Assembly (NCBI RefSeq): GCF_018271995.1
Contig: NZ_JAGUCO010000003.1
Coordinates: forward strand, 1-64,000
Direction: 5' to 3'
DNA from: Carboxylicivirga linearis
GTDB taxonomy: Bacteria; Bacteroidota; Bacteroidia; Bacteroidales; Marinilabiliaceae
DNA length: 64,000 bases
This document shows, piece by piece, positions 247-48,998 of the stretch. Numbering within the stretch: position 1 is the first letter of the stretch; each line of letters begins with the position of its first letter. The notes under the pieces are model-generated. The model did no database searches, was not told the origin of the DNA, and saw nothing but the letters and a program-made list of their open reading frames with translations. The position numbers and the translations under genes are program-made.

Positions 247-330
247 AAATAAAAACAAGAAAACCGGTTCGCTCGTTTGCAAACCGGTTTCTAATAACCT
301 AAACCCAAATCTATGAAAAAAAATCTACGA
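247..330 (-). ncRNA. Candidate small RNA ending in an intrinsic terminator
   Basis: A minus-strand transcript starting near 330, about 12 nt downstream of the sigma-54-like element at 340-355, would run about 80 nt. It would end at a perfect 9-bp hairpin (AAACCGGTT at 261-269 against AACCGGTTT at 282-290) followed on that strand by a U-rich run (260 to about 247). No open reading frame of useful length lies between them. A second, sigma-70-type box TAGATTTG is present at 313-306 without a good -33 element. The RNA itself is inferred; the promoter-like and terminator-like elements are seen directly. Nothing else on this strand explains the terminator, because thiL points the other way. Confidence 0.4.
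261..290 (-). terminator. Orphan intrinsic terminator
   Basis: The arms AAACCGGTT and AACCGGTTT (9 bp, perfect) are followed on the minus strand by TTCTTGTTTTTATTT. No minus-strand gene precedes it, apart from the proposed small RNA. Confidence 0.6.
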
Positions 331-339
331 GATTCTTTT

Positions 340-355
340 TGCAATAATGCTGCCA
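340..355 (-). promoter_or_regulatory. Candidate sigma-54 (RpoN) promoter
   Basis: The minus strand reads TGGCAGCATTATTGCA. The invariant GG and GC are separated by exactly 10 nt, as the -24/-12 class requires. The match to the family consensus TGGCACG-N4-TTGCW is 10 of 12 positions. Two sigma-54 activators are encoded in this window (39891-41234 and 47751-48998), so the organism should have RpoN. Confidence 0.45.
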
Positions 356-508: not shown

Positions 509-1552
509 ATGAGTAATAAACAAAATACCCAGATTGGTCAATTAGGAGAATTTGGTTTAATTCAGCACTTGACTAATAATATAAAAATCAAGCAAGAGTC
601 AACAAAGAAGGGAGTTGGAGATGATGCTGCTGTGTTGGATTTGCAAGGAAAGCAAACGGTTGTTACTACCGATCTTTTGTTGGAAGGGATTCATTTTGAT
701 TTGACTTATACCCCTTTAAAACATTTGGGATATAAAGCAGTTGTTGTGAATGTGAGTGATGTATATGCAATGAATGCTATTCCAACGCAAATTACAGTTT
801 CGTTAGGTGTAAGTTCAAAAATGTCGGTTGAGGGGTTGGATGAATTTTATGAAGGAGTTTATGCTGCATGCGATTATTACAATGTAGATTTAGTTGGAGG
901 TGATACTTCATCATCGTTAACAGGTTTAACAATTTCTGTTACAGCAATAGGGCTAGGTGATGCTGATAAAATTGTTTATCGCAGCGGAGCAAAGAAAAAT
1001 GATTTGATTTGCGTTTCAGGAGATTTGGGCGGAGCCTATATGGGCTTGCAGTTGTTGGAACGCGAAAAAAAGGTTTATGCCAATAACCCGGAAGTTCAAC
1101 CTGACCTATCCGGATATGATTATATTTTGCAACGTCAACTAAAACCTGAAGCCCGAAAAGATGTAAGCCAATTTTTAAGTGAATTGGATGTGGTTCCAAC
1201 ATCTATGATTGATATCTCAGATGGTTTATCGAGTGAGATCAAACATATTTGTGAGCAATCAAAAACAGGTTGTCGCCTTTATGAAAATAAGATTCCGGTA
1301 GATCCTACCACTTCAATGCTGGCAGAAGAAATGGGCATAAATCCATTAGTAGCTGCCTTAAATGGCGGTGAAGATTATGAATTGCTTTTCACCATTAGTC
1401 AGGATGATTATGAGAAGTTTGCTGGTAAAGAAGGAGCCAATATTTACATTGTCGGTCATATCACCGACGAAAGTAAAGGCTGTTATCTGGTTACAAATGC
1501 CGATCAGGAAGTGGAGCTTCAGGCACAAGGTTGGAATCCATTAAAGAAATAA
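509..1552 (+). CDS. thiL: Thiamine-monophosphate kinase ThiL
   Basis: Phosphorylates thiamine monophosphate with ATP to give thiamine pyrophosphate, the last step of vitamin B1 cofactor synthesis, in the cytoplasm. Family motifs run through the protein in order: GDDAAVLD near the N-terminus, TTDLLLEGIHFD, a GDTSSS metal/ATP-binding stretch, GDLGGAYMGL, DISDGLSSEI and NGGEDYELLFT near the C-terminus. An in-frame ATG at 458 would add 17 hydrophobic residues. I prefer the ATG at 509, because the family begins close to this point, a TAnnTTTG box lies at 481-488, and the extension resembles no family sequence. No TPP riboswitch is apparent upstream. The 347-residue length is normal for the family. 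An intrinsic terminator follows. Confidence 0.95.
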   Translation: MSNKQNTQIGQLGEFGLIQHLTNNIKIKQESTKKGVGDDAAVLDLQGKQTVVTTDLLLEGIHFDLTYTPLKHLGYKAVVVNVSDVYAMNAIPTQITVSLGVSSKMSVEGLDEFYEGVYAACDYYNVDLVGGDTSSSLTGLTISVTAIGLGDADKIVYRSGAKKNDLICVSGDLGGAYMGLQLLEREKKVYANNPEVQPDLSGYDYILQRQLKPEARKDVSQFLSELDVVPTSMIDISDGLSSEIKHICEQSKTGCRLYENKIPVDPTTSMLAEEMGINPLVAALNGGEDYELLFTISQDDYEKFAGKEGANIYIVGHITDESKGCYLVTNADQEVELQAQGWNPLKK

Positions 1553-9742: not shown

Positions 9743-10120
9743 ATGAATGTTCCTGAAAATCTAAAGTATACAAAGGATCACGAATGGATCCTTGTTGATG
9801 GTGATATAGCTACTGTAGGTATCACTGAGTTTGCCCAAGGTGAGCTTGGCGACATTGTTTTTGTTGAGATTGAGACTGAAGACGAAGAATTGGATAAAGA
9901 AGAGGTTTTTGGTACCATTGAAGCTGTTAAAACAGTATCAGACTTGTATATGCCTATTACAGGTAAAGTATTAGAAGTCAATCCTAATTTGGAAGATCAG
10001 CCTGATTTGGTAAACAAAGAGCCTTTTGATGGAGGTTGGATGATTAAGATCCAGGTAGCTGACGCATCTGAAATTGATGGTTTGCTTAGTGCCGACCAGT
10101 ATAAAGAGTTGATAGGTTAA
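9743..10120 (+). CDS. gcvH: Glycine cleavage system H protein
   Basis: GcvH is the lipoyl-carrying shuttle of the glycine cleavage system, moving the aminomethyl group between the P, T and L proteins. With the start at 9743 (MNVPENLKYTKDHEW) the protein has 125 residues, the usual length. The lipoylated lysine is K63, in VFGTIEAVKTVSDLY. An upstream in-frame ATG at 9665 would add 26 residues unlike the family and would start before the TAnnTTTG box, so I reject it. The other cleavage-system genes are not in this window. Its place behind sprA is conserved in Bacteroidota, although no functional link is known to me. Confidence 0.95.
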   Translation: MNVPENLKYTKDHEWILVDGDIATVGITEFAQGELGDIVFVEIETEDEELDKEEVFGTIEAVKTVSDLYMPITGKVLEVNPNLEDQPDLVNKEPFDGGWMIKIQVADASEIDGLLSADQYKELIG

Positions 10121-10140
10121 TTGTAACAGCAACATAAAAA

Positions 10141-10165
10141 AAGCGGCTATTAGCCGCTTTTTTTA
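10141..10165. terminator. Bidirectional terminator between gcvH and lpxA
   Basis: A perfect 9-bp inverted repeat (10141-10149 against 10151-10159) is followed by a T tract on the plus strand. It lies between convergent genes. Confidence 0.8.
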
Positions 10166-10181
10166 TTTATATACTTTTTTC

Positions 10182-10970
10182 TTAGTCTCTTTCAGGATAA
10201 TATCCTTTGATGATTCCTCTTTGCGAATTTCGTACAAATAGGATGATTTCATCGCGTTCTTTCGAAGTTGGAAGTTCAGCCTCTATACGTTCAATAGCTT
10301 CAGTGTTATTCAATCCCATTTGGAATAAATAACGATAAATATTCTGAATATCTCTGATCTGATCATTCGTATAACTACGACGGCGAAGACCAATAGAATT
10401 AACTCCGGCATATGAAATTCTTTCACGACCAGCTTTTACGTATGGAGGAACATCTTTACCGATTAAAGTACCACCAGCAACCATTACATGAGCTCCAATG
10501 TGTACAAATTGATGAATGGCTGAAGTACCTCCAATAATCGCATAATCATCAATCACTACTTCTCCAGCTACCTGCACTGAATTTGCCAGAATAACATGGT
10601 CTCCCAAAATAGCATCATGAGCAATATGAGTATAAGCCATCAGCAAACAGTTGCTACCTACAACCGTTTTACCTTTAGCTTTGGTGCCACGGTTAACGGT
10701 AACGCACTCTCTGATAGTTGTGTTGTCCCCAATCTCAGCTGTTGTTTCTTCTCCGGCAAACTTTAAATCCTGCGGAACAGCACCAATTACAGCACCTGGG
10801 AAAATATTACAGTTTTTACCAATTCTTGATCCTTCAAGAATAGTTACGTTTGAACCAATGGTTGTACCTTCTTCAATAACCACATTTTTATCAATGGTTA
10901 CAAACGGCTCAATTACCACGTTCTTAGCAATTTTTGCTTCCGGGTGGATATATGCTAACGGTTGTTTCAT
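10182..10970 (-). CDS. lpxA: Acyl-ACP--UDP-N-acetylglucosamine O-acyltransferase LpxA
   Basis: Catalyses the first step of lipid A synthesis, moving a hydroxyacyl chain from ACP to the 3-OH of UDP-GlcNAc. The N-terminal two thirds of the 262 residues are left-handed beta-helix hexapeptide repeats (for example IAKNVV, IGSNVT, IGKNCN). The catalytic histidine corresponds to H118 in the HIAHD motif. The C-terminal helical domain (about 190-262) contains the usual SIGLRRR stretch. It is the last gene of an lpxD, lpxC-fabZ, lpxA cluster on the minus strand, 54 nt after the fusion gene. Confidence 0.97.
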   Translation of the reverse strand: MKQPLAYIHPEAKIAKNVVIEPFVTIDKNVVIEEGTTIGSNVTILEGSRIGKNCNIFPGAVIGAVPQDLKFAGEETTAEIGDNTTIRECVTVNRGTKAKGKTVVGSNCLLMAYTHIAHDAILGDHVILANSVQVAGEVVIDDYAIIGGTSAIHQFVHIGAHVMVAGGTLIGKDVPPYVKAGRERISYAGVNSIGLRRRSYTNDQIRDIQNIYRYLFQMGLNNTEAIERIEAELPTSKERDEIILFVRNSQRGIIKGYYPERD

Positions 10971-11024
10971 TTCTTACTTCTTTATTGCGTCAGTTCTAAA
11001 ACTAACAAAGATAATAGTTGCTGA

Positions 11025-12431
11025 TTATTTAATATCCTTATTTTTTACTACCTGGGCTACAAATTCGCCTTCCGATACAATGGTGTTGCCAACAAAAGCA
11101 GTTCCTTTCATATTTGCCATGCCTCTTCTAAATTCGCTTAAAAGCTCTAATTTAAATATGAGGGTGTCGCCAGGAATTACTTTTCTTCGCAATTTAACAT
11201 TGTCTATTTTAACAAAGTAGGTGCTGTAGGCGCTGGGTTCGTCTAGTTTACTTAATACAAAAATTCCTCCTGTTTGAGCCATTGCTTCAATCTGTAGTAC
11301 AGCCGGCATTACCGGTTCATCTGGAAAGTGGCCAACAAAGAATGGTTCATTCATTGTCACATTCTTAATTCCTACGATTGATTTCTCGTTTAGTTCAATA
11401 ATCTTGTCAACCAACAAAAATGGAGGTCGGTGAGGTAGCATTTTTTTGATATCATTGATATCGTAAATTGCTTCTTTGCATGTATCATAACACGGTACCT
11501 CCGGACGTAAAGATCGTTTTTTAATTTCCTTACGAATTATTTTAGCAAACTCAACATTGGCCATATGTCCAGGACGAGTTGCCATAATACGTCCTTTAAT
11601 AGGCATTCCACAAAGAGCTAAATCGCCAATTACATCTAATAATTTATGACGAGCCGGTTCATTGGAATAAACCAAATCTACATTATTGAGTATGCCTGTA
11701 GGTTGAACTTCAACTCTAGGCTTATTAAATAAATCAGCCAGCTTATCCAGTTCTTCCTGCGAAATTTCTTTATCAATAATGATGATAGCATTATCGAGGT
11801 CACCACCTTTAATAAGGTTGTTTTTTAACAAGGGCTCTAGCTCATGTAGAAAAACAAAAGTACGACAGGCGCTGATTTCTTTTTCATAATCGTCCAACGA
11901 ATCCAAGGTGGCATATTGGTTAGAGAGAGTCAATGATTTATCAAACGAAATTTTTACATCAGCGCTGAATTCATCATCCGGAAGGGCTACAATTTTAATA
12001 CCCAGCTCTTCATTCTCGTATACCATCTTCTCTTTTACAACGAAGTATTTTTTCTCTTCGCCTTGCTCTTCGGTTCCGACCTCTTTAATTGCTTCTATAA
12101 AGAATTTGGCACTACCGTCGAGGATAGGTGCTTCAGGACCATCAACTTCAATCAGACAGTTGTCTATTTTAGAAGCCGAAAGTGCAGATAAGCAGTGTTC
12201 TATGGTGCTTATTGTTGCATCACCTTTAGCTAAAACAGTCCCTCTTTGAGTCATAGTCACATTATCTGCCAAGGCATCAATAATGGGCTGATCCTCTAAA
12301 TCAATTCTCTTAAATTTATATCCGTGATTAACGGGTGCAGGATGAATAGTAAGATTTACTTTTGCACCAGTATGTAAGCCGGTTCCGCTTAGGGTTATCG
12401 CTTTTTTGAGTGTTATTTGCTTTTCAACCAT
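11025..12431 (-). CDS. lpxC: Bifunctional LpxC deacetylase / FabZ dehydratase
   Basis: A two-enzyme fusion of 468 residues. Residues 1 to about 305 are UDP-3-O-acyl-N-acetylglucosamine deacetylase (LpxC), the committed step of lipid A synthesis. The zinc ligands are visible as H79 (STIEHC) and H262/D266 (RHKLLDVIGD). Residues about 320-468 are beta-hydroxyacyl-ACP dehydratase (FabZ), with catalytic H368 in GHFP and E382 in IEAMAQTGG. The fusion is known and widespread in Bacteroidota. It links the lipid A and fatty acid pathways, which compete for the same hydroxyacyl-ACP. It lies 45 nt downstream of lpxD. Confidence 0.97.
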   Translation of the reverse strand: MVEKQITLKKAITLSGTGLHTGAKVNLTIHPAPVNHGYKFKRIDLEDQPIIDALADNVTMTQRGTVLAKGDATISTIEHCLSALSASKIDNCLIEVDGPEAPILDGSAKFFIEAIKEVGTEEQGEEKKYFVVKEKMVYENEELGIKIVALPDDEFSADVKISFDKSLTLSNQYATLDSLDDYEKEISACRTFVFLHELEPLLKNNLIKGGDLDNAIIIIDKEISQEELDKLADLFNKPRVEVQPTGILNNVDLVYSNEPARHKLLDVIGDLALCGMPIKGRIMATRPGHMANVEFAKIIRKEIKKRSLRPEVPCYDTCKEAIYDINDIKKMLPHRPPFLLVDKIIELNEKSIVGIKNVTMNEPFFVGHFPDEPVMPAVLQIEAMAQTGGIFVLSKLDEPSAYSTYFVKIDNVKLRRKVIPGDTLIFKLELLSEFRRGMANMKGTAFVGNTIVSEGEFVAQVVKNKDIK

Positions 12432-39890: not shown

Positions 39891-41234
39891 ATGAGAATTA
39901 ATGTTATTGAGGATGATAAGGTGTTTAATAAGCTGATTGAGCATACTTTGAAACTCAATCCTGATTATGAAGTACAGTCCTATTTTAACGGGAAAGATTT
40001 TATACGAAATTTAAGCGATAACCCGGATGTTGTAACCTTGGATTTGGGCTTGCCTGATTATACGGGTAATGAAATTTTGAAAAAAATTAAGCGTTTTAAC
40101 CCTGAAATCGATGTTATAGTTATTTCTGGTCAGGATGACATTTCAACAGCTGTTCAGCTCTTAAAAGAGGGGGCCTACGATTATATCACCAAAGATGAGA
40201 ATATTAAGGAACGTTTGCTTCATAGTATTCAGAATATTAAGAAAAATAAGAACCTTAAAAACGAGATTAGCCAGCTAAAGACGGAGATAGGGAATAAATA
40301 TGAATACCGTAATGCAATTATTGGTGATAGCCCTGCCATAAAAGCGGTTTTTGCTTTAATTGACAAAGCGATAAAAGTACCCAATATTAATGTTTCGGTA
40401 TATGGCGAAACGGGTACAGGTAAGGAGTTAATAGCCAAAACTATTCATTATAATTCACCACGTAAAGACAGTCCGTTTATTGCGGTTAATATGGGAGCTA
40501 TTCCCAAGGAATTGATCGAAAGCGAATTGTTTGGGCATGAGAAAGGTGCTTTTACAGGCGCTATTACAGCAAAGAAAGGTAAGTTTGAAGAGGCTGATGG
40601 CGGTACCATCTTTTTAGATGAGATAGGGGAGATGGACTTGAACCTTCAGGTGAAGCTGCTTCGTGTTTTACAGGAAAGAGAAATAACCCGGGTTGGAGGC
40701 AATGCTGTTATAAAAATTAATACACGAATAATAACAGCAACCAACAGAGATTTGGCAGAAGAAGTAAGGGAAGGAAACTTCCGCGAAGATTTGTACTATC
40801 GCTTACTTGGCTTACCCATTCACCTTCCACCATTAAAAGATAGAAGAAATGATACGATTATGCTTACTCAACATTTCTTAAATACCTTTTGTAAAGATAA
40901 TGGATTGGATAAGTTGGAGCTTACTTCTGCAGCTAAAAAGAAGATATTGAGTCATCGTTTCCCAGGAAATGTTCGCGAGTTAAAAGCGGTAGTTGAATTA
41001 GGTGCCGTAATGACTAATTCAAATATTATTGATGAAGAACATATTATGTTTAACTCCACTCAATCGGAGGAAGATATTTTCAATGAAGAGATGACCTTAA
41101 AAGAATACACCGAACGTATTATACGTCATTACCTCAAAAAGTATAATAACAATGTACTACAAGTGGCAGATAAATTGGATATGGGTAAGTCTACCATCTA
41201 TAATTTGCTGAAAAAAGATAAAGAAACTAAGTGA
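39891..41234 (+). CDS. NtrC-family response regulator (sigma-54 activator)
   Basis: A 447-residue enhancer-binding protein. The receiver domain (about 1-118) has acidic residues ED8-9, phospho-acceptor D51 and K101. The AAA+ domain (about 140-370) has Walker A GETGTGKE at 172-179 and the sigma-54-contacting GAFTGA at 219-224. The C-terminus is a Fis-type helix-turn-helix (about 410-447, VLQVADKLDMGKSTIYNLL). No kinase gene is adjacent, so its partner is unknown. A small lipoprotein gene follows after 67 nt. Confidence 0.93.
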   Translation: MRINVIEDDKVFNKLIEHTLKLNPDYEVQSYFNGKDFIRNLSDNPDVVTLDLGLPDYTGNEILKKIKRFNPEIDVIVISGQDDISTAVQLLKEGAYDYITKDENIKERLLHSIQNIKKNKNLKNEISQLKTEIGNKYEYRNAIIGDSPAIKAVFALIDKAIKVPNINVSVYGETGTGKELIAKTIHYNSPRKDSPFIAVNMGAIPKELIESELFGHEKGAFTGAITAKKGKFEEADGGTIFLDEIGEMDLNLQVKLLRVLQEREITRVGGNAVIKINTRIITATNRDLAEEVREGNFREDLYYRLLGLPIHLPPLKDRRNDTIMLTQHFLNTFCKDNGLDKLELTSAAKKKILSHRFPGNVRELKAVVELGAVMTNSNIIDEEHIMFNSTQSEEDIFNEEMTLKEYTERIIRHYLKKYNNNVLQVADKLDMGKSTIYNLLKKDKETK

Positions 41235-47750: not shown

Positions 47751-48998
47751 TTACCCTTCTATCTTATATTCTTTAATTTTCCGGTACAAAGTTCGTTCCG
47801 AAATACCCAATTCGCGAGCTGCTTGCTTACGTTTCCCATTGTACTTATCCAATGCTTTTTTTATCAATTCAATTTCTTTTTCAGCTAAAGACAATGATTC
47901 TTCAACAAATTCTTCGGTATCTTCAATGCCTGAATGCTGTTCGTTTTGTTGATTATTGTACGTTGGAACGTTGTTAGGTATATTGTCCGGTACAAAGCTG
48001 CCTTCTTCAGTTTGATATAGTTTTTGAACGATATTAGCATGTTCAGCCTGAGCAACCACCGGACCATCTTCCAGTAAGCCGTGTACCAGTGTTTTTAAAT
48101 CGTTCATATCGCGTTTCATATCAAATAAAACCTTATATAATATTTCACGCTCTGTATTGAAATCAGCTCCACCAGGCATGTTTTTCTGATCGATTAAAGC
48201 CGGCAGGTTATCTCCGCTATGATAAGGTAAATAACGAGTCATTGATTCACCGTCAATTTCTCTTTCTTGCTCAATTACAGATATTTGTTCGGTAATGTTT
48301 TTTAATTGTCGGATGTTTCCCGGCCATCGATATCCCAAAAGAAGCTTCTTGGCATCATCGGTTAATTTAATTGCCGGCATGCGGTAACGATTGGCAAAGT
48401 CGCTTGAAAATTTGCGGAATAATAAATAAATATCTTCAGCTCTGTCGCGCAACGGTGGTATTTTTATAGGAACGCTGTTAAGGCGATAATACAAATCTTC
48501 ACGAAATTTACCTTCTTTAATGGCTTTCTCCATTTCAACATTGGTGGCAGCTACCACCCGAACATCCGTCTTTAAAACTTTGGAAGAACCTACCTTCATA
48601 AATTCTCCGGTTTCTAAAACTCTCAGTAATCGCACTTGTGTTGCTAAAGGAAGCTCTCCAATTTCATCTAAAAAAATAGTTCCTTTATTAGCTTCTTCAA
48701 AATAACCTTTACGATCCGACAAGGCTCCGGTGAAGGCTCCTTTTTCGTGACCAAATAATTCTGAATCAATGGTTCCCTCAGGAATAGCCCCGCAGTTAAC
48801 CGCAACATAAGGCCCATGTTTTCGAGCGCTGTTCTGATGAATAATTTGTGGAAAAGACTCTTTACCAGTACCACTCTCACCCGTGATCAGAACAGAAAGA
48901 TCGGTGGGAGCAACTTGTACGGCAACATCAATGGCCCTATTTAGACCAAATGAATTACCTATGATGCCAAACCTTTGTTTGATTTGCTGTAGATCCAT
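47751..48998 (-). CDS. Sigma-54-interacting transcriptional activator without receiver
   Basis: A 415-residue AAA+ enhancer-binding protein that lacks an N-terminal sensor or receiver. The AAA+ domain has Walker A GESGTGKE, the GAFTGA loop (EKGAFTGALSDRKG) and LYYRLNSVPIKIPPLRDR. A middle linker and a C-terminal Fis-type HTH (KRKQAARELGISERTLYRKI) follow. I start it at 48998 (MDLQQIKQRFGIIG): the in-frame ATG at 49070 lies upstream of the promoter box TAACTTTG (49060-49053) and adds unrelated residues. It heads the lptE-TPR-secG run. With no sensory domain, its activity is probably set by its level or by a partner. Confidence 0.9.
   Translation of the reverse strand: MDLQQIKQRFGIIGNSFGLNRAIDVAVQVAPTDLSVLITGESGTGKESFPQIIHQNSARKHGPYVAVNCGAIPEGTIDSELFGHEKGAFTGALSDRKGYFEEANKGTIFLDEIGELPLATQVRLLRVLETGEFMKVGSSKVLKTDVRVVAATNVEMEKAIKEGKFREDLYYRLNSVPIKIPPLRDRAEDIYLLFRKFSSDFANRYRMPAIKLTDDAKKLLLGYRWPGNIRQLKNITEQISVIEQEREIDGESMTRYLPYHSGDNLPALIDQKNMPGGADFNTEREILYKVLFDMKRDMNDLKTLVHGLLEDGPVVAQAEHANIVQKLYQTEEGSFVPDNIPNNVPTYNNQQNEQHSGIEDTEEFVEESLSLAEKEIELIKKALDKYNGKRKQAARELGISERTLYRKIKEYKIEG

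Follow-up and report, generated by a model that had tools for sequence, protein, structure and literature searches.

A predicted FopS-like small RNA family behind sigma-54-type promoters in Carboxylicivirga linearis and its relatives

Introduction

In gut Bacteroides, the recently described FopS sRNAs hold back the use of glycans. According to one study, the FopS genes of B. thetaiotaomicron are transcribed from housekeeping sigma-ABfr promoters, and FopS-10 binds susC starts and blocks their translation, an effect that is counteracted by RbpB; the same text reports a response to bile salts, gives its regulator as unknown, describes FopS also from a phage, and mentions only in general terms that sigma factors may vary within an sRNA family (PMC11697453). 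The R1 seed of FopS is shared, according to the same source, with a second Bacteroides sRNA, GibS (PMC11697453). GibS is about 145 nt long and is described as preceded by the near-palindromic promoter motif PM2, which has boxes at -10 and -30 and not at -24/-12; PM2 was therefore discarded as a hidden sigma-54 site (PMC7366714).

In the open-access papers searched, nothing was found that joins RpoN with small RNAs of Bacteroidota, or Carboxylicivirga with an sRNA. By term search, the main text of a 2025 survey of sigma-54 regulons contains no mention of sRNA, small RNA or non-coding RNA (PMC12316311), and three B. thetaiotaomicron papers do not mention RpoN. A sister family of FopS located behind sigma-54 promoters would provide a testable handle on what switches such sRNAs on, with sigma-factor classes sorted within one sRNA family, and it would count as a candidate for a major share of what sigma-54 controls in Bacteroidota.

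The locus and its promoter

The window is the whole 64-kb stretch of C. linearis DNA that was analyzed. In the gap between thiL and tRNA-Met, its minus strand carries, in this order, a promoter, a predicted start at about 329, a conserved core, a stem-loop and a U-rich tail. The features discussed here are the following:

355-340, minus strand: sigma-54-type -24/-12 promoter TGGCAGCATTATTGCA, with GG-N10-GC spacing
~329-250, minus strand: predicted sRNA of about 80 nt; the 5′ end is set 12 nt past the -12 C, the 3′ end lies in the U tract
328-292, minus strand: conserved 5′ core, or seed, GUAGAUUUUUUUUCAUAGAUUUGGGUUUAGGUUAUUA; 37 nt, AU-rich, antisense to AUG-containing translation starts
291-260, minus strand: intrinsic terminator stem-loop of 13 pairs, G-U included, with the 6-nt loop AAACGA
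259-250, minus strand: U-rich tail of the terminator
387-373, minus strand: degenerate TTTAC-N5-TTATC, a weak form, by eye, of the upstream 10-bp direct repeat TTAAC-N5-RTAAC
509-1552, plus strand: thiL, divergent neighbor (name taken from an earlier sequence-only reading; homologues flank the sRNA in relatives)
80-7, minus strand: tRNA-Met (cat), downstream of the terminator
39891-41234, plus strand: response-regulator-type sigma-54 activator, a candidate activator only
47751-48998, minus strand: AAA+/Fis-type sigma-54 activator, a candidate activator only

An earlier note on this DNA had proposed that a sigma-54-type promoter leads here to an orphan terminator, with a regulated RNA of about 80 nt as the simplest explanation. 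Such an RNA, running from the sigma-54-type promoter to the intrinsic terminator, is still the best reading and is supported by the analyses that follow; the word orphan has to be dropped, as many paralogues of the element exist and together form a family akin to FopS. The spacing of the 16-mer was confirmed, as was the orientation of thiL away from the sRNA, and TGGCAGCATTATTGCA is the sole exact TGGCAN6TTGCA of the window. With one mismatch allowed, the window contains nine matches where 5.5 are expected, a number that 12 of 100 shuffles also reach; the match in the window alone is thus weak, and it is lifted above chance because it is conserved across copies.

The segment 331-245 folds with -23.2 kcal/mol (z -4.1), and only one of 200 shuffles was as stable. 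The hairpin begins about 38 nt past the predicted start at 329, not about 50 nt as had been estimated. The perfect 9-bp arms and the U-rich tail noted before are present, but the arms are part of the longer 13-pair stem, G-U pairs being allowed. The claim that no protein gene lies between promoter and terminator holds for the minus strand, where no frame of at least 25 codons occurs in the transcribed stretch; on the plus strand, a 25-codon frame (313-390) overlaps it.

Copies and conservation

The genome of C. linearis holds seven copies with a sigma-54-type promoter: a 19-base core pattern located six places, all six with the sigma-54 pattern, and the seventh copy combines a variant core with an exact box (L043; C115:434588). 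Two further copies, of type B (see below), lie on contig C94. Fifteen exact TGGCAN6TTGCA sites are found in the genome, five of which precede an sRNA copy; the reversed control gave three sites. In the bacterial family, the 19-base core pattern with one mismatch occurs in 52 of 71 genomes (one match overall for the reversed pattern), and a pattern search for copies with this promoter type retrieved 86 in 26 of the 71 (reversed control, one). Blastn of the gap against 60 relatives matched at least 46 genomes; the core accounted for most of the matches, and many genomes were hit more than once.

The thiL/sRNA/tRNA-Met arrangement is kept in related genomes: thiL homologues with 79-89% identity lie beside the sRNA in nine of the 29 relatives' loci searched, and tRNA-Met is present in eight of these nine. 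Other copies sit at other loci and have other neighbors. The earlier note had named conservation in close relatives as a check of its reading, and indeed both the -24/-12 element and the hairpin are kept in the thiL gap. The alignment comprised 15 copies, taken from the thiL gaps of 11 genomes and from the two copies of a tenth relative (L014), whose short contig shows tRNA-Met and not thiL; in it the core is nearly invariant, the -12 TTG is invariant, the -24 GG is present in 13 of the 15 and the spacers are variable. The RNAalifold consensus contains 24 pairs, some of them outside the terminator; in the terminator both partners differ in seven pairs, whereas certain rows lose individual pairs, in part as an effect of the alignment. 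Five other sigma-54-type copies of the C. linearis genome were folded, four of which have an AACG terminator loop. Promoter, core, terminator, paralogy and synteny are shown at the level of sequence.

In Saccharicrinis/Labilibacter-type genomes (L152-L154, L158, L199 and L229), the sigma-54 box is followed at several places by two tandem core-hairpin units, and in one genus (G073, G074, G034 and G076) the box can likewise precede a double unit with two cores and two hairpins; this suggests a double sRNA or a processed precursor. In G001, a match to Acido-Lenti-1 RNA (L131:98-142, minus strand; 35.9 bits, cut-off 37) lies beside type-B copies.

A wider search with the sigma-54 pattern gave 80 loci among the matches listed, of 86 stretches. 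A crude sRNA filter was passed by 55 of the 80, and the 25 that failed it look like chance matches; a Paenibacillus record (L170) passed the filter and was judged false. Three records titled Bacteroidales (L171, L224 and L227), one from water buffalo colon, hold sigma-54-type copies, and therefore this type may extend beyond the bacterial family. A plasmid collection gave no match.

Relationship to FopS

At the Rfam gathering thresholds only the tRNA was found. In a relaxed search the best model for the window copy was JA04, an unrelated Aggregatibacter sRNA (28.5 bits, cut-off 81), followed by the FopS model RF04319, which aligned over its full length with 22.7 bits (cut-off 56); the best RF04319 score in the genome is 27.7 bits. 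At E <= 1 the FopS model matches 67 of the 71 family genomes, a level at which a B. subtilis control also matches, below the cut-off; a single genome of the 71 exceeds the cut-off (L364, 76.8 bits), and by eye this copy has an apparent sigma-ABfr promoter. Among the best 60 RF04319 hits in the bacterial family, 24 coincide with places found independently by the core pattern. We therefore place the family beside RF04319, as a homologue or a sister, and outside that Rfam entry in its present definition; the RNA of the window is a diverged relative of Bacteroides FopS.

The likeness concerns architecture and predicted action. As for FopS, there are several paralogues in the genome, and a 5′ seed, mostly open with a weak predicted helix inside the core, is followed by an intrinsic, Rho-independent terminator; a related seed, UUUUUCAU..AGAUUU..AGGUUA, is found in the FopS alignment. 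Pairing at SusC translation starts is predicted from thermodynamic enrichment, and one RRM_1 (RbpB-like) protein is encoded in the genome. Unlike FopS, the window copy has no canonical sigma-ABfr promoter but a sigma-54-type one, and its score is far under the cut-off; it further differs in the seed variant GGGUUUAGGUUA and in the upstream TTAAC repeat, and other copies of the genome differ in the AACG loop.

Promoter classes and seed variants

Promoter usage was counted on 141 distinct copies collected by the core alone, with the exclusion of loci selected by the sigma-54 pattern; a broader set of 204 places includes such loci and does not enter the promoter counts. Each copy was scored, out of 10, for the best TGGCAN6TTGCA match 12-29 nt before the core. 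The distribution is two-peaked: 78 copies score 8-10 and 63 score 4-7. A score of at least 8 was reached by none of the 141 at 50 nt upstream, by none with the reversed consensus, and by eight with a spacer one base shorter.

The seed variants sort with the promoter class, namely sigma-54, sigma-ABfr and a third one. Among the 99 copies with GGGTT seeds, 78 have the sigma-54 promoter and 21 score below 8. The 29 copies with GGATTT(A/G)GTTA seeds (subfamily B) comprise 28 with a match to the TTTG-type -7 element and none with a sigma-54 promoter. The GGATTTTGAG-type seeds have neither (8/8), and seven of these eight upstreams share AACC/T...GTGTT, which is ECF-like by eye; the remaining five copies carry other seeds and no sigma-54 promoter. 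The third subfamily, with its own seed, is represented by L065, L098, L102, L106, L110, L112, L118 and L121, one copy in each of eight congeneric genomes, the motif being indistinct in L121. The relation to FopS, the subfamilies with other promoter classes and the 5′ end antisense to translation starts are points that go beyond the earlier reading.

Upstream repeat, RpoN and candidate activators

A 10-bp TTAAC direct repeat lies upstream in both main classes. A first count used 93 sigma-54-type upstreams, some of them from loci chosen by the sigma-54 pattern: TAAC precedes the box by 31/30 nt in 36 of these and by 21/20 nt in 38. In the 78 unselected copies TAAC lies near one of the two places in 47 and near both in 25, and the control word CAAT in none; in subfamily B (29 copies), with the -7 element as reference, 26 copies have TTAAC at -50 and 25 have it at -40. 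Relative to the predicted starts, we estimate positions of about -58 and -48 for both classes, so that one regulator site seems to have been kept across sigma classes. The repeat pair is not specific to these sRNAs, since a 1.39-Mb sample contains 53 occurrences, compared with 28 after one shuffle.

In form, the upstream repeat is similar to the PhoP box of B. subtilis. A triple direct repeat (L320:5341-5367, minus strand) is located 100 nt before a PHO4-family phosphate transporter gene. A reading as a Pho box was rejected: the PHO4-family gene has the three repeats, but none is found before a pstS-like gene, named by eye and from a neighboring PstB-like match that is itself below its curated cut-off, and phosphate control is therefore not claimed.

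Sigma-54 promoters need an activator driven by ATP. RpoN, which had been expected, was found once in the genome; it is present in 68 of the 71 family genomes, and because it is nearly universal in the bacterial family, its co-occurrence cannot test dependence. One genome that is 72% complete (G026) has an RF04319 match (L366) with a -24/-12-like sequence by eye, and no RpoN was found in it. The genome of C. linearis encodes 16 matches to sigma-54 activators, ten of them strong, and the two announced for the window are both real; as activators of the sRNA, all are candidates only. One sRNA copy (L087:8568-8669) lies about 1.4 kb from a GAF-AAA-Fis activator (10050-11606), near a frame that is NifH-like by eye. 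NifA as the regulator was discarded, as no activator frame was seen by eye next to the other copies of the genome inspected.

Predicted targets

The core is the antisense of ...CCUAAACCCAAAUCUAUGAAAAAAAA. Pairing with SusC starts was computed for the best 30 of the 34 loci over the cut-off (54 hits in all): 13 of the 30 pair at -20 kcal/mol or better, whereas shuffling the 3′ part of the seed 200 times gave a mean of 2.3 and a maximum of 9, with no shuffle reaching 13. Among genes that start with Met-Lys/Arg, SusC exceeds the others, with 11 of 22 against 31 of 385.

Across all 973 gene starts contained in 1.39 Mb of the genome, there is a modest predicted excess of pairing. With a limit of -22 kcal/mol, 22 starts pair, whereas 30 shuffles of the full seed gave a mean of 4.4 and a maximum of 9; 25 part-shuffles that kept the AUG-facing part gave a mean of 10.7 and a maximum of 18, so that about half of the count reflects a generic AUG-AAA match. 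Of all genes, one for a GH127 glycosidase gives the strongest pairing (-35.0 kcal/mol, taking the second Met of its frame, L091:9141, as the assumed start); its start pairs across almost the entire core; the start of the adjoining GH42 gene pairs with -22.2 kcal/mol. GH42 and GH127 stand in a row (L091:5155-11254, minus strand; G000:C33 ~76154-82253), and both starts are complementary to the core. This place on C33 was first matched by blastn as a copy, and it is the GH127 gene start, not an sRNA copy. An exact search with the target pattern, allowing up to three mismatches, returned eight places, which were sRNA copies and not gene starts. Seeds A, B and C pair with overlapping sets of SusC genes, and the predicted pairing therefore does not separate the seed variants by their targets.

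Alternative explanations

The family could be real and the -24/-12 match incidental, transcription being driven by a housekeeping-type promoter. Subfamily B carries the TTTG-type -7 element in 28 of its 29 copies, FopS of B. thetaiotaomicron is described with sigma-ABfr promoters (PMC11697453), and a TTGACA-N17-CATTAT match lies at 372-344. This match loses weight when the whole gap is considered, as sigma-70-like matches are no more frequent there than in shuffles (3 vs 2.6); moreover, a TTTG-type match around -7 is present in only five of the 78 copies of sigma-54 type, and the GGG-seed copies retain the -24/-12 bases while the spacers vary, the scores falling into two peaks. We regard a housekeeping-type promoter as improbable.

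The position of the hairpin between thiL and tRNA-Met, as the only terminator-like site in the gap, on the minus strand, could also indicate a mere transcription barrier protecting either gene, or a tRNA leader, with no trans-acting RNA; since other copies of the unit occur at other loci with other neighbors, and conservation is stronger in the 5′ core than in the stem, a pattern for which a mere barrier gives no reason, this is very improbable. A similarly slight chance is given to the unit being mobile DNA, a DNA repeat or cargo of a phage, in place of a regulated gene: copies are several per genome, some in tandem, and FopS is reported from a phage (PMC11697453), but promoter and core are conserved while the stems diverge with compensation. 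Viral carriage was rejected, as the six core matches on IMG/VR viral contigs lack the -24/-12 pattern, and inspection by eye revealed no terminator hairpin in them. That the conserved stretch encodes a short peptide is hardly credible: a TTG-start frame of five codons can be read in the window copy, but copies with GGGTTTAGG and with GGGTTAGG differ by one base, and the frame is therefore not kept.

Proposed function and comparison with known systems

The window segment 355-250 on the minus strand is thus probably the gene of a trans-acting sRNA of about 80 nt that belongs to a FopS-like paralogous family, is transcribed by RpoN polymerase from the -24/-12 promoter and ends at the intrinsic terminator; its core UUUUUUUUCAUAGAUUUGGGUUUAGGUUA would pair across start codons and block translation. 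Transcription, pairing, repression and the existence of a signal are here what we infer from sequence features. Given the sigma-54-type promoter, the copies should stay silent until an ATP-driven activator senses a signal; the resulting RNA would then pair across the start codons of its targets, chief among them certain outer-membrane glycan transporters of the SusC type and certain glycoside hydrolases. By analogy with FopS-10, blocking of the translation start would be the simplest mode of action. Since the 5′ core matches the starts of sugar-uptake genes, glycan uptake would probably be shut down, the copies acting jointly to lower it.

In Vibrio, the Qrr RNAs (sigma-54/LuxO) are, as here, paralogous trans-acting sRNAs behind sigma-54 promoters, with unrelated sequence. 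Qrr are Hfq-dependent and serve quorum sensing. CrcZ, CrcY and CrcX of Pseudomonas and Azotobacter (sigma-54/CbrB) are several sigma-54-dependent sRNAs that set carbon-source preference. They act by sequestering Hfq/Crc and not by antisense pairing. More tentatively, and with rather more doubt than belief, we propose that evolution has placed one sRNA module, antisense to start codons, under three or more promoter classes (sigma-54, sigma-ABfr and ECF-like), each with its own seed extension. The first two would share the regulator site formed by the TTAAC repeat, at a similar distance from the start, and the sigma-54 branch would act as a global glycan-uptake switch of the Qrr/CrcZ kind in Marinilabiliaceae, perhaps also in other Bacteroidales. 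In short, the sRNA family may be described as FopS wired like Qrr of Vibrio or CrcZ of Pseudomonas.
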